DNA of 64,000 bases from Serratia fonticola. GTDB lineage: Bacteria > Pseudomonadota > Gammaproteobacteria > Enterobacterales > Enterobacteriaceae. A program made the translations under genes and the position numbers. Location: the NCBI RefSeq assembly GCF_001006005.1, contig NZ_CP011254.1, positions 3,534,001 through 3,598,000 of the forward strand, written 5' to 3'. Below, piece by piece: positions 2,919 to 27,888 of this stretch. The notes beneath the pieces were generated by a model. It was not told where the DNA came from. It searched no databases and saw only the letters and a list, made by a program, of their open reading frames with translations. Every line of letters begins with the position of its first letter. The first letter of the stretch is position 1.

Positions 2919-3710
2919 ATGCCAGAAGGGCCGGAGATCCGCCGGGCGGCAGATAAGCTGGCGGCGGTGATGATCGAGCAACCACTGACCGAAGTCTGGT
3001 TTGCTTTCCCGCAACTGAAACACTATCAGGTCGAGCTGGTCGGTGAACGTATCACCGCCATCGAACCGCGTGGTAAAGCCTTGTTAACCGATTTCTCCAA
3101 CGGTTTGACCATGTACAGCCACAACCAGCTCTATGGCGTGTGGAAGGTGGTGCTAGCTGGCGAAACGCCAGAAACCAAGCGCGATTTGCGGGTGCGATTG
3201 GAGACGGCCGAGTGGGCGATTTTGTTGTACAGCGCTTCGGATATCACCATTGCGCCGCGCGGTGAGATCGAGCAGCACCCGTTTTTAAAACGTATTGGCC
3301 CTGACGTGCTGGATATGGCTCTGACCGTAGAGCAGGTGGAACAGCGGTTGTTATCGCCGGCGTTTTGTAAGCGCCAGTTAGGCGGGATGCTGCTGGATCA
3401 GTCTTTTCTGGCTGGCCTGGGCAACTACCTGCGAGCCGAGATTTTGTGGCAGGCAGAACTTGCACCCAAGCATAAACCGCAGGATCTCACCCCTGATGCG
3501 CTACATCAGTTGGCGCAGGCGCTGTTGGATATTCCACGCATTTCATATCAGACCCGTGGTCAGGTAGATGAAAATCGCCATCACGGCACACTGTTCAGCT
3601 TCAAGGTGTTTCATCGCAGCGGTGAGCCTTGTCCGCGCTGTGGGGCAATGATCGAGAAAACGGCGCTATCTTCGCGACCGTTTTATTGGTGCCCGGTTTG
3701 CCAGAAGTAA
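2919..3710 (+). CDS. nei: endonuclease VIII, DNA glycosylase/AP lyase
   Basis: A 263-residue protein, the same length as E. coli Nei. It excises oxidised pyrimidines and cleaves the abasic site. The start at 2919 is fixed by biology: the catalytic residue must be Pro2 after Met removal, and the protein starts [14 protein letters not shown] with the active-site Glu3 next to it. An AAGGAG site lies upstream. The C-terminus has the four-cysteine zinc finger (CPRCG and CPVCQK). A longer frame upstream would bury Pro2 and is rejected. The gene is followed by a hairpin that mainly serves gltA on the other strand. Confidence 0.96.
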
Positions 3711-24275: not shown

Positions 24276-25079
24276 ATGAACAGTAACTTCAGACGTCACT
24301 TGTTGAGTCTGGCGTTACTGGTTGGCGTAGCGGTCCCATGGGCCGCTACTGCCCAAGCGCCAATCAGTAATGTCGGGTCCGGCTCGGTCGAAGACCGTGT
24401 CACATCACTTGAGCGTATCAGTAATGCTCAGGGCCAGCTTTTGAACCAACTCCAGCAACAACTCTCTGACAACCAACGCGATATCGATACGCTCCGTGGG
24501 CAGATCCAGGAAAGTCAGTATCAGTTGAATCAGGTAGTTGAACGCCAGAAACAGATCTATCAACAGATGGATAGCCTTAGCCAGGGTGGCGCACAGAATT
24601 CCGCTGGTGCAGCAGCAGGGGCCGCAGGTGGTACAGCCGCCGCGGCGTCTTCTGACGGCGCTGGCAGCGCTCCTGCGGGTGCGACAGCCGCTGCGGCTAG
24701 TACGGGCGATGAAAACAGCGACTACAACGCCGCTGTTTCACTGGCGCTGGAAAAAAAGCAGTATGACCAGGCGATCTCCGCTTTTCAGGCTTTCATAAAG
24801 CAGTATCCGAAATCCAATTACCTGCCTAATGCCAACTATTGGCTGGGCCAGTTGTACTACAACAAGGGTAAGAAGGAAGACGCGGCATACTATTATGCAG
24901 TGGTGGTTAAGAGTTACCCAAAATCACCCAAGGCGCCGGACGCAATGTATAAAGTTGGGGTGATCATGCAGGAAAAAGGGCAGGCTGATAAAGCCAAAGC
25001 CGTTTACCAGCAGGTGATCAAATCGTACCCGACCAGCGATGCGGCCAAGCAGGCCAAGAAACGCGAAGCGAGTTTGTAA
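24276..25079 (+). CDS. cpoB: cell division coordinator CpoB (YbgF)
   Basis: A 267-residue periplasmic protein (E. coli 263). Signal peptide ends near Ala28 (ATAQA before PISNVG). A trimerising coiled coil (about residues 40-105, rich in Gln and Leu) is followed by an Ala/Gly linker and TPR repeats (AFIKQYPKSNYLPNANYWLG, VVKSYPKSPKAPDAMYKVG, VIKSYPTSDAAKQAK). CpoB couples Tol function to PBP1B activity at the septum. It starts nine bases after pal. Confidence 0.96.
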   Translation: MNSNFRRHLLSLALLVGVAVPWAATAQAPISNVGSGSVEDRVTSLERISNAQGQLLNQLQQQLSDNQRDIDTLRGQIQESQYQLNQVVERQKQIYQQMDSLSQGGAQNSAGAAAGAAGGTAAAASSDGAGSAPAGATAAAASTGDENSDYNAAVSLALEKKQYDQAISAFQAFIKQYPKSNYLPNANYWLGQLYYNKGKKEDAAYYYAVVVKSYPKSPKAPDAMYKVGVIMQEKGQADKAKAVYQQVIKSYPTSDAAKQAKKREASL

Positions 25080-25088
25080 GTAAAAATC

Positions 25089-25127
25089 GAGCCCAGAAGT
25101 TAGTCGATTTGACCGAATTCTGGGCTC
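25089..25127 (+). terminator. probable tol-pal operon terminator hairpin
   Basis: GAGCCCAGAA (25089-25098) and TTCTGGGCTC (25118-25127) are a perfect 10-bp inverted repeat ten bases after cpoB. The loop is long (19 bases) and the T-run after it is poor, so termination may be partial. Confidence 0.45.
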
Positions 25128-25174
25128 ATTCGCGTGAAGAACAAGCAGTTGAACCTATTGCGCCAAAATTTAGG

Positions 25175-25202
25175 TTGCGCTGCTGAGATAAATTAGTAAT
25201 AT
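25175..25202 (+). promoter_or_regulatory. predicted stable-RNA promoter for the tRNA operon
   Basis: TTGCGC (25175-25180) and TAATAT (25197-25202) are 16 bases apart. The next bases, ATGCCGCCG, form a GC-rich discriminator as found in stringently controlled tRNA and rRNA promoters. It lies about 50 bases before the first tRNA-Lys sequence. Confidence 0.6.
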
Positions 25203-25253
25203 ATGCCGCCGTTGCCAAGACAACTTGCAAGATGTTAAAGCAGCTAGGAAATT

Positions 25254-25363
25254 GGGTCGTTAGCTCAGTTGGTAGAGCAGTTGACTTTTAATCAATTGGT
25301 CGCAGGTTCGAGCCGAGCGGCAGCGAGACAACGGCGACAGCCGGTAATCCTGCAAACCCGCCA
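25254..25363 (+). pseudogene. disrupted tRNA-Lys(UUU) with a 35-nt insert in the T-loop
   Basis: The first 58 bases are identical to the intact tRNA-Lys copies downstream (anticodon TTT). After GGTTCGA, where the intact gene continues ATCCTGC, there is a 35-base insert (25312-25346), then ATCCTGC and a changed acceptor end AAACCCGCCA. The insert contains CGGC-GACA-GCCG and can fold. The 3' acceptor strand no longer pairs fully with the 5' strand. I consider it a non-functional hybrid tRNA gene. The perfect 5' part suggests recent recombination or gene conversion. Confidence 0.8.
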
Positions 25364-25432
25364 ATTCGTAATGAGATATCGTTGTCGAATTGTGAAGTTA
25401 GAATTTTGTAGTTCAGCAGTAACCACATCAGT

Positions 25433-25508
25433 GGGTCGTTAGCTCAGTTGGTAGAGCAGTTGACTTTTAATCAATTGGTCGCAGGTTCGAATCCTGCACG
25501 ACCCACCA
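25433..25508 (+). tRNA. tRNA-Lys (anticodon TTT)
   Basis: A 76-base cloverleaf with encoded CCA: acceptor GGGTCGT/ACGACCC, D-arm TAGCTCAGTTGGTAGAGC, anticodon TTT in CTTTTAA, T-arm GCAGGTTCGAATCCTGC. Sequence corresponds to enterobacterial tRNA-Lys. Confidence 0.98.
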
Positions 25509-25552
25509 ATTCATAGTGAATTGGTAAAGAGTGGAGTAGTAACCACGACAGT

Positions 25553-25628
25553 GGGTGATTAGCTCAGTTGGTAGAGCATCTCCTTTACACGGAGGGGGTC
25601 GGCGGTTCGAGCCCGTCATCACCCACCA
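25553..25628 (+). tRNA. tRNA-Val (anticodon TAC)
   Basis: A 76-base cloverleaf with encoded CCA: acceptor GGGTGAT/ATCACCC, anticodon TAC in CTTTACACG, T-loop GGTTCGAGCCC. It is the only valine gene here; E. coli has two in this operon. Confidence 0.98.
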
Positions 25629-25635
25629 CTACAGT

Positions 25636-25711
25636 GGGTCGTTAGCTCAGTTGGTAGAGCAGTTGACTTTTAATCAATTGGTCGCAGGTTCGAATCCTGC
25701 ACGACCCACCA
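25636..25711 (+). tRNA. tRNA-Lys (anticodon TTT)
   Basis: Identical 76-base copy of tRNA-Lys with encoded CCA. It starts only eight bases after tRNA-Val. Confidence 0.98.
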
Positions 25712-25761
25712 TTTTTAAGATTTATTTGTGAGTCAAATCGTGAGGATGAGAACCGTTAAAA

Positions 25762-25819
25762 GTTCGAGCCGAGCGAAGCGAGACAACGGCAATAGCCGTT
25801 AATCCTGCCAGACCCACCA
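25762..25819 (+). repeat. isolated tRNA-Lys 3'-end module with 34-nt insert
   Basis: GTTCGA, then a 34-base insert (25768-25801), then ATCCTGCCAGACCCACCA. It resembles the T-arm and acceptor end of tRNA-Lys with the same kind of insert as the disrupted gene at 25254, but no 5' tRNA half precedes it. The insert contains a perfect AACGGC-AATA-GCCGTT hairpin. Confidence 0.7.
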
Positions 25820-25877
25820 TTATGTGCATTCGAGTCCTTCCTCGTTGCTCTCGTATTAAGAAGTAAACCACGTCAGT

Positions 25878-25953
25878 GGGTCGTTAGCTCAGTTGGTAGA
25901 GCAGTTGACTTTTAATCAATTGGTCGCAGGTTCGAATCCTGCACGACCCACCA
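25878..25953 (+). tRNA. tRNA-Lys (anticodon TTT)
   Basis: Identical 76-base tRNA-Lys with encoded CCA. Its 5' leader contains CCAC-GTCA-GTGG, ending on tRNA bases 1-2. Confidence 0.98.
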
Positions 25954-26029
25954 ATTCTTGATGAATTGGTAAAGCATTGCAGTCGAGTCCTCTCGTTGCT
26001 AACGCGGTTCAGCAGTAAACCACATCAGT

Positions 26030-26105
26030 GGGTCGTTAGCTCAGTTGGTAGAGCAGTTGACTTTTAATCAATTGGTCGCAGGTTCGAATCCTGCACGACC
26101 CACCA
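26030..26105 (+). tRNA. tRNA-Lys (anticodon TTT), last of the cluster
   Basis: Identical 76-base tRNA-Lys with encoded CCA. Its final CCA is also the first bases of the 138-bp tandem repeat, so the repeat array starts exactly at the tRNA end. Confidence 0.98.
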
Positions 26106-26516
26106 TCTTCAAGAATTCTCAATAATAAAATCCCAGCAATAAAATCGCATATCGCACCGGTCGTGCGGGTGAGATCCTGCGCTCAGGTTCGAGTCTCGCT
26201 TGCGAGACAACGGCGGCAGCCGGTCATCCTGTCAGACCCGCCATCTTCAAGAATTCTCAATAATAAAATCCCAGCAATAAAATCGCATATCGCACCGGTC
26301 GTGCGGGTGAGATCCTGCGCTCAGGTTCGAGTCTCGCTTGCGAGACAACGGCGGCAGCCGGTCATCCTGCCAGGCCCACCATCTCAAAGAATTCTCAATA
26401 ATAAAATCCCAGCAATAAAATCGCATATTGCACCAGTCGTGTAGGTGAGATCCTGCGCTCAGGTTCGAGTCTCGCTTGCGAGACAACGGCGGCAGCCGGT
26501 CATCCTGCCAGATCCA
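26103..26516 (+). repeat. three tandem 138-bp repeats with tRNA 3'-end sequence
   Basis: Units at 26103-26240, 26241-26378 and 26379-26516 are each exactly 138 bases. The first two differ at very few positions and the third slightly more. Each unit begins CCATCT and runs through an AT-rich part (AATTCTCAATAATAAAATCC). It ends with CAGGTTCGA, a 33-base insert, and ATCCTG plus an acceptor-like end into the next CCA. The insert holds the hairpin GTCTCG-CTTG-CGAGAC and a CGGC-GGCA-GCCG hairpin. Layout resembles the rtT repeats after E. coli tyrT, which also carry tRNA 3' ends. Confidence 0.85.
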
Positions 26517-26739
26517 CCAGTTCTTTAATCGTACTCCCGTCTAACTTGCCTTTAATTCCTCAACACTTAATCTCGCCAATTTATCGGTCAGGTGGGCGCA
26601 GCATGCAGCGCCCGTACTTTGCTCAGCCTGTGTATTGCCAGCCGCCACTCCCTTTTACAACCCGAAATTTTCAATCTAATAAACAAATAAAGCCAAAAAA
26701 AGAAATGTTCAGCGACTTTTAGCCAAAAATTAGGTATTT

Positions 26740-26757
26740 TGTTTAGTATATAAAACG
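26740..26757 (+). promoter_or_regulatory. candidate NadR operator before nadA
   Basis: TGTTTA-GTATAT-AAAACG resembles the NadR palindrome TGTTTA-N6-TAAACA: the first half is perfect and the second half matches four of six. It overlaps a TATA-rich region likely to include the -10 element, as expected for repression by NAD level. The rest of 26520-26826 shows no gene. Confidence 0.5.
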
Positions 26758-26826
26758 AGGCGGTTGAGCAAGCGGCAAGATACAGCCTAAAAAGCAGACC
26801 CACAGCCTAGCATAGAGATAACAGCG

Positions 26827-27888
26827 ATGAGTGAAATGTTTGATGTCAATGCGGCGATATATCCATTCCCGCCGAAACCGGTGCCGTTAGACGTCGCAGA
26901 GAAGGCTTTTTATCGGCAGAAGATCAAAACCTTGCTCAAGCAGCGTGATGCGGTCCTGGTAGCCCATTACTACACCGATCCGGAGATCCAGGCACTGGCC
27001 GAAGAGACTGGTGGCTGTGTCGCCGATTCACTGGAGATGGCGCGTTTCGGCAGCCAACATCCTGCGTCTACTTTGCTGGTTGCTGGCGTGCGTTTTATGG
27101 GGGAAACGGCCAAAATCCTCAGCCCGGAAAAACAGGTGCTGATGCCAACGCTGCATGCCGAGTGCTCGCTGGACCTCGGTTGTCCTGAGGCGGAGTTTGC
27201 CGCGTTCTGCGACAGCCATCCTGATCGGACAGTGGTGGTTTACGCCAATACCTCAGCAGCCGTCAAAGCGCGTGCCGATTGGGTGGTCACTTCCAGCATT
27301 GCCGTTGAGCTGATTGAACATCTCGATAGCCTGGGGGAGAAAATCATCTGGGCGCCGGATCGCCATCTGGGCAACTATGTACAGAAGCAGACCGGCGCAG
27401 ACGTACTATGCTGGCAGGGGGCCTGTATCGTCCATGACGAGTTTAAAACCCAGGCACTGATACGTATGAAAGCCCTATATCCGGAGGCCGCGATACTGGT
27501 GCATCCAGAGTCACCGCAGGCGATTGTCGATCTGGCTGATGCCGTCGGTTCGACCAGCCAACTGATCCAGGCGGCGGTAACCTTGCCCAACCGGCAACTG
27601 ATCGTGGCTACCGATCGCGGTATCTTCTACAAGATGCAGCAAGCTTGTCCGGATAAAGAACTGTTTGAAGCTCCTACTGCTGGCGAGGGGGCTACCTGTC
27701 GCAGCTGTGCCCACTGCCCGTGGATGGCGATGAACGGCCTGAAGGCCATTGCCGAAGGGTTGGAACAAGGCGGTTCACAGCATGAGATTTTTGTTGATGG
27801 CGCACTGCGTGAGCAGGCGCTTATTCCGCTCAACCGCATGCTGGACTTTGCAGCGCAGTTGAAAATGCAGGTTAAAGGCAACGCCTGA
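26827..27888 (+). CDS. nadA: quinolinate synthase A
   Basis: A 353-residue 4Fe-4S enzyme that condenses iminoaspartate with dihydroxyacetone phosphate to quinolinate, in de novo NAD synthesis. Cluster ligands Cys113 ([10 protein letters not shown]), Cys200 ([12 protein letters not shown]) and Cys297 ([13 protein letters not shown]) fall at the E. coli positions. The iminoaspartate partner gene nadB is not in the window. pnuC follows 31 bases later, joining synthesis and salvage in one likely NadR-controlled operon. Confidence 0.97.

Follow-up and report, generated by a model that had tools for sequence, protein, structure and literature searches.

Behind a tRNA-Lys gene of Serratia fonticola lie three tandem repeats that each end much as the tRNA does, and the question is whether they are small RNA genes comparable with the rtT repeats of the Escherichia coli tyrT operon or elements of another nature. 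All positions refer to the window, the stretch of 64,000 nucleotides that was analysed, which comes from a 6.0-Mb single-contig genome. The preliminary description had placed three 138-bp repeats with tRNA-Lys-like ends at 26103-26516; we recovered the same array shifted by 3 nt (26106-26519, Table 1), beginning one base past the CCA of the tRNA. TRF gave a period of 138, 3.1 copies and 94% matches over 26088-26519, and a repeat search found copies 2 and 3 to be 96% and 92% identical to the first, at spacings of 138 and 138. The array belongs to a Lys/Val tRNA cluster and is flanked by the tol-pal genes (tolA, tolB, pal, cpoB) and by nadA-pnuC. A scan of the + strand from 24400 to 26900 found no terminator, so that a transcript through the array is possible. 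Every spacer holds a weak sigma-70-like match (9/12; 26116-26145, 26254-26283 and 26392-26421), three in all compared with a shuffle mean of 2.2. An ARAGORN tRNA-Gln call at 24620-24699 was discarded as false; it lies inside cpoB and is missing among the Rfam tRNA matches.

Table 1. Features of the tRNA cluster and repeat array, in window coordinates.
Feature	Position	Strand	Remarks
Broken tRNA-Lys	25254..25363	+	5' part up to GGTTCGA fused to element core and tail; Rfam tRNA 36.0 bits, T arm unaligned
tRNA-Lys(UUU)	25433..25508	+	
tRNA-Val(UAC)	25553..25628	+	
tRNA-Lys(UUU)	25636..25711	+	
Single element after tRNA-Lys 25636-25711	25738..25819	+	GGATGAGAACC type; RF00391 24.7 bits; tail 2/18 mismatches; RNA fold z -3.4
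tRNA-Lys(UUU)	25878..25953	+	
tRNA-Lys(UUU)	26030..26105	+	Immediately 5' of array; array tails resemble its 3' end
Unit 1	26106..26243	+	Spacer, left arm GGTCGTGCGGGT 26159-26170, hairpin 26173-26190, core hairpins 26194-26207 and 26211-26222, tail 26226-26243
Unit 2	26244..26381	+	Repeat search, TRF; RF00391 16.0 bits
Unit 3	26382..26519	+	Repeat search, TRF; RF00391 19.2 bits

From 5' to 3', each unit of the window array is composed of an AT-rich spacer, a left arm (GGTCGTGCGGGT, slightly altered in unit 3) that repeats part of the tRNA 3' end in inverted orientation, a hairpin (GATCCTG-CGCT-CAGGTTC), CGA, two core hairpins (TCTCGC-TT-GCGAGA, then CGGC-GGCA-GCCG) and a tail that starts with ATCCTG. 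The general arrangement is an inverted partial 3'-end copy, GGTTCGA, a two-hairpin core and ATCC...CCA. The double hairpin insert described earlier for each unit is indeed present, as two hairpins inside a T-loop core of about 33 nt. Each unit had also been credited with a tRNA-like T-arm and CCA end: the Lys-like 3' end stands, but the T-arm is not a plain one, its loop being opened by the insert, and the tails differ from that of tRNA-Lys at 4/18 (unit 1), 3/18 (unit 2) and 3/18 (unit 3) positions. On inspection, the left arm is still more complementary to the tail of the tRNA itself (CACGACC) than to the drifted tail of the unit to which it belongs.

The window units fold weakly, with z scores against shuffles of -1.0, -1.2 and -1.2 as RNA, and of -0.4 (unit 1) and -1.2 (unit 3) as DNA. 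Further Lys copies occur in the genome, two in the same cluster (Table 1) and one (L002) behind another Lys gene, probably lysV by the E. coli gene order. The L002 copy adopts one branched fold (z -4.9 as RNA and -4.7 as DNA; -4.1 for the opposite DNA strand, so that a strand preference as DNA is not evident). Weak folds and drifted tails in the window, compared with the well-folded L002 copy, indicate that the window array is an amplified but partly decayed member of its class. Decay of the array in close relatives, without conserved hairpins, had been named in advance as an outcome that would speak against the small-RNA proposal, and the weak folding and tail drift go part of the way towards it.

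The likeness to E. coli rtT had been presented as an analogy, and we find kinship. The copies in the window score 27.8, 24.7, 19.2 and 16.0 bits with RF00391, all under its gathering cut-off of 45, the last two scores being full-length alignments (model positions 1-130) to units 3 and 2. The cut-off is exceeded (45.4-47.5 bits) by four copies elsewhere in this genome, which stand behind Ser and Tyr genes. The RtT order of inverted arm, hairpin, GGTTCGA, core and ATCC tail is found in the window alignment and, as in the tyrT repeats, tandem units start from the tRNA 3' end and each ends likewise, with tails 14-15/18 identical. E. coli K-12 has units of the same anatomy, a single one separating tyrT from tyrV and another three behind tyrV; the annotated K-12 RttR (171 nt) runs from just behind tyrV to the exact CCA of the first tail. 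The repeat had been called unrelated in size: the sizes do differ (138 versus 178), but mostly through a shorter core and spacer. No match was obtained by blastn of the window array against E. coli genomes. Salmonella rtT is listed as a 175-bp VNTR in PMC2658671, and an antisense sRNA at tRNA-Tyr is mentioned in PMC11623569. A literature search, with most subscription journals outside its reach, found no paper on such elements behind non-Tyr bacterial tRNAs.

The distribution of copies in the S. fonticola genome was analysed with R1, a model made in this analysis from 40 sequences, applied to the best 150 of 1851 first-look candidates. Fifteen of the 16 matches at E<=10 (the 15 with E<=0.2) lie behind same-strand tRNA genes; the 16th, at 1535172 (E 7), was taken as noise. 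No convincing dispersed MITE- or REP-like copy was seen at unrelated places among these best 150 of 1851 candidates. An initial palindrome detector, which returned 480 candidates, was abandoned as too permissive. Scanning with the 18-nt tail of each of the 83 tRNAs called by ARAGORN showed that Pro and Arg genes, two Lys loci and both Ser(GGA) loci are followed by copies on the same strand; the other tRNAs gave only scattered matches at 4-5 mismatches. The two Ser genes differ in the acceptor end, and the tails behind each one are of the corresponding type (best, 1 mismatch). Three Tyr copies, found by model search, have tails 7-8 off, too decayed for the tail scan. Elements of this genome occur only behind tRNAs with a TTCGAA T-arm (29/83 calls) and behind none of the other 54.

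The match between tail and tRNA was examined in 162 listed RtT matches (146 of the 150 listed in the survey of 59 genomes described below, 15 from the S. fonticola genome and one added window unit). A same-strand tRNA call was present upstream, in the sequence examined, in 155 (Lys 47, Tyr 45, Ser 33, Pro 22, Val 4, Arg 3, Gln 1). Among these, the tail differed from the 18 nt of the upstream tRNA at no position in 99 cases, at one in 19 and at two or more in 37, which include the decayed S. fonticola Tyr copies; 85 of the 110 non-Tyr elements had at most one mismatch. The four 'Val' elements span a tRNA-Lys, and three of them end exactly as tRNA-Lys does, whereas the fourth deviates at 5 positions; the single 'Gln' element is the broken tRNA-Lys at 25254, scored against the false cpoB call. 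Seven matches lack a tRNA call: three of them end in a Tyr or Lys tail with no more than one mismatch, two others deviate at 3 and 5 positions, and the remaining two, located near contig ends in G046, correspond to no tail. In most elements the tail is identical to that of the tRNA upstream.

Elements of this kind are widespread. Loci from relatives and from a Gammaproteobacteria sample were gathered through matches to the RtT model; genome counts include the S. fonticola genome, and since first-look candidates were scored for the best 47, 11 or 8 per genome, prevalences are lower bounds. RtT matches at E<=0.01 were found in 28 of 59 genomes (S. fonticola and relatives; 27 above the cut-off), and at E<=0.001 in 51 of the 274 genomes of the Gammaproteobacteria sample (19 above the cut-off), where the parents of the loci read include Gln, Ser, Tyr, Glu and Arg. 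Taken together, the parent tRNAs in Gammaproteobacteria are Tyr, Lys, Pro, Ser, Arg, Gln and Glu. In a phylum sample, R1 matched 71 of 398 genomes, 38 of them outside Gammaproteobacteria and 37 of those in one family, probably zetaproteobacterial; one named Zetaproteobacteria contig carries an element. Of 14 loci read in this family, 13 follow Ser, Gln or Asp genes with tails at 0-1 mismatches, and one is without a tRNA call.

A strict DNA pattern found 108 stretches in named genomes. The 80 of these that were listed contain 96 matches, of which 83 lie no more than 1500 nt downstream of a tRNA; among the 83, the tail is exact in 61, has one mismatch in 7 and at least two in 14, and was unscored in 1; 11 of the 13 matches without tRNA lie within 300 nt of the edge of the sequence examined. 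The records include Serratia, Yersinia, Pectobacterium, Neptuniibacter, Idiomarina, Thioalkalivibrio, Bacteroidota and an Auribacterota MAG, and an alphaproteobacterial MAG with a tail 3 off. In Bacteroidota records, elements follow Thr, Val and Ser genes. As the Bacteroidota search pattern requires GATGAGAACC, GGTTCGA and TAATCC, the sharing of these motifs is not independent evidence, and several of the records are MAGs, for which mis-binning is possible. Two Bacteroidota Cys cases have poor tails (9/16 off in L318, 4/16 off in L386). With a similar strict pattern, only the starting genome matched among the 395 genomes of a Bacteroidota sample; the Bacteroidota form is either rare or too different for the strict pattern. 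Two arrays were seen apart from any called tRNA: two Lys-tailed units near 1241-1440 of L339, an orphan array with no tRNA called in the 8 kb examined, and two Tyr-type units in L120 (G003:C11:528795-529070), with no same-strand tRNA called in 1.1 kb upstream.

The structure of the class was analysed on 85 units selected from 222 tail copies, four of which, after Ala (L178), are unverified elements; alignment A1 holds 40 of the 63 elements left after dereplication. In A1, 92.3% of the cells pair, compared with 76.4% in shuffles, a paired fraction biased upward by the selection for at most three left-arm and one tail mismatches. Covariation was 0.407, compared with 0.149 in shuffled and 0.08-0.12 in slid alignments. 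Six of nine outer pairs in A1 have changed on both sides, and the left arms examined below show no wobble excess. The left arm of the 85 units contains TTCGAA, the exact reverse complement of the T loop, in 7 cases, a sequence one change off in 11, GAG instead in 57 and another sequence in 10; the inverted copy measures 22-31 nt in the best Gln and Ser loci and reaches the variable arm in Ser. Given the TTCGAA remnants and the long inverted copies, the left arm has the appearance of a genuine inverted duplication.

For 105 of 115 cores, the most similar core from another genome stands behind a tRNA of the same type, and core similarity is 0.194 between different tRNAs of the same genome versus 0.186 between genomes. 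Since cores follow the tRNA type and not the genome, inheritance looks vertical, with local tandem amplification, and active hopping as the present mode was rejected.

Elements also fuse with their tRNA genes. The tRNA-Lys at 25254-25363 was destroyed by a junction to an element at GGTTCGA, and a relative (G004, L179) keeps an intact tRNA and element there (alignment A2). In L298 (reversed strand, near 3574), 15 nt of the 5' end of a tRNA-Gln are fused to an element, with no tRNA called in the 8 kb examined; the gene before it is presumably rpsI, judging by its C-terminus. Two further loci show altered units. In L069, near 1380, a second Pro unit ends just behind GGATGAGA and is followed by unrelated sequence, which we presume may be an insertion sequence. 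In L269, a unit after tRNA-Ser contains an additional hairpin piece in its core, as though cores were able to grow, and its tail ends 224 nt past the tRNA.

The reading that we favour, and to which we give an even chance, is that the class consists of DNA palindromes bound to tRNA genes and kept in step with their own tRNA, the window array being a partly decayed Lys member and E. coli rtT the known example. A unit consists of an inverted partial copy of the resident tRNA 3' end followed by a direct copy, in which a core of two to four hairpins interrupts the T loop behind TTCGA (or a close variant). The tRNA-sense strand would fold during replication, while it is single-stranded, and both arms would be kept matched to the tRNA by template switching between them and by recombination with the tRNA gene. 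Slippage or unequal exchange between tails would yield tandem arrays and sometimes tRNA-element fusions. Any RNA made, such as RttR in E. coli, would then be a by-product or of local use, and a general RNA role is probably absent. Template switching is described as able to make and mend hairpins in PMC8794818 and PMC7202029. More tentatively, and with somewhat less than even probability, RtT may be the visible part of an ancient group of DNA palindromes that fold as single strands, occurring in at least two Pseudomonadota classes and in Bacteroidota and possibly selected for a DNA function at tRNA genes (such as replication restart or recombination control).

The main competing explanation widens the proposal of the preliminary description, in which tRNA 3' enzymes could release small RNAs of about 138 nt: every unit would be a gene for a small RNA that is cotranscribed with the tRNA, processed at the tRNA-like 3' end and active as a decoy or regulator. 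The annotation of K-12 RttR, with its end at the tail CCA, agrees with it, as do the strong covariation in A1 and the tandem GA motif reported in RtT RNA (PMC7657543). Of 122 first units (tail at most 4 mismatches, within 260 nt, a choice made for both terminator sets), 53 are separated from the tRNA by an intrinsic-terminator-like hairpin: Pro 11/13, Ser 23/34, Lys 11/27, Gln 6/17, Arg 1/4, Glu 1/2, Tyr 0/24 and Ala 0/1, the Ala case being an unverified element. The absence of such a hairpin before 24/24 Tyr and 16/27 Lys first units suits an RNA gene, but units beyond the hairpins are as intact as the rest, with exact tails in 39/53 versus 57/69 and a mean tail mismatch of 0.42 (53 units) versus 0.36 (69 units). 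Elements are also independent of an encoded CCA: in Bacteroidota, tRNA genes that encode no CCA are followed by element tails also without CCA, which end where the gene ends (four units after Thr in L326; two exact and a third truncated after Val in L380; Ser in L345). The tail is therefore copied from the gene DNA, and an encoded CCA is not essential.

Base pairing was also compared with what an RNA would prefer. At left-arm positions 5-11 of 130 elements, wobbles occupy 21/356 sites and mismatches of the A-C type 42/554, a weak test as one side is the tRNA-matched tail. G-U pairs number 147 in sense versus 154 in antisense folds without the outer stem, and 133 versus 213 in whole units, compared with 225 versus 149 in tRNAs. 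C-GNA-G accounts for 118 of 176 triloops, compared with 6 of 149 in shuffles; GNA-loop DNA mini-hairpins are described as unusually stable in PMC4686876. Certain features count against the DNA-palindrome reading: the annotation of RttR; a better RNA fold of the sense strand (mean -1.5 kcal/mol relative to antisense, lower in 51/85; tRNAs likewise, -2.3 and 90/120); one core pair that favours G-U over A-C, 11 to 3; and conserved unpaired stretches (GAG, GAACG, GAGTA), which suggest that the fold is recognised by something. The poorly folded window array, the 37/155 tails at two or more mismatches and the 7/162 matches without upstream tRNA call also weigh against it. Units beyond terminators, Bacteroidota tails without CCA and the lack of a G-U preference in the arms disfavour a small RNA as the general function of the class, which is not supported, and we consider the small-RNA gene unlikely.

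Less probable still is that the units are relics, or dependent satellites, of a site-specific recombinase or transposase that entered tRNA T loops at TTCGA and displaced the tail. The core does stand directly behind TTCGA or a near variant, S. fonticola elements are restricted to TTCGAA T-arm tRNAs, core motifs are common to different tRNA types and to Gammaproteobacteria and the outside family, and a few units (L120, L339) are without a nearby tRNA call. On the other hand, cores follow the tRNA type and not the genome, S. fonticola has no convincing element away from tRNAs, one strict pattern gave 0 matches in viral contigs, and no recombinase gene or longer bounded element was found: the 138-bp units hold none, and the neighbours are cpoB and nadA. 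That the units are neutral leftovers, duplicated tRNA ends decaying by chance, would fit the weak folds and drifting tails of the window and the three decayed Tyr copies, but is very improbable for the class, in view of its exact tails, compensatory arms and core motifs conserved across classes.

In conclusion, the family filed as RtT under the RNA of one E. coli operon stands in Pseudomonadota behind tRNAs of eight amino acids (Tyr, Lys, Pro, Ser, Arg, Gln, Glu, Asp) and in Bacteroidota records behind those of at least three (Thr, Val, Ser), and its members mostly match their own tRNA. The old puzzle of the tyrT repeats is thereby recast, and the elements offer a natural test of the concerted evolution of palindromes and tRNA genes; deletion between a tRNA and its element is a route of tRNA gene loss.

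REP and BIME sequences are short intergenic palindromes at 3' ends, often arrayed. By that description, the tRNA-tail elements are set apart in being tied and matched to tRNA genes and not dispersed. Quasipalindromes homogenised by template switching (PMC7202029) similarly have imperfect inverted repeats that are kept or made more perfect; in the present elements one arm is a copy of the neighbouring tRNA gene, and they are spread over classes. The closest relatives are the E. coli tyrT/tyrV repeats (RttR, RF00391), which share with the window array the tandem position behind a tRNA, the inverted arm, the hairpin, GGTTCGA, the hairpin core and the ATCC tail with CCA. The window array differs from them in scoring under the Rfam cut-off, in having tails mismatched to its tRNA, in its parent, which is Lys and not Tyr, and in a shorter, two-hairpin core within a unit of 138 instead of 178.
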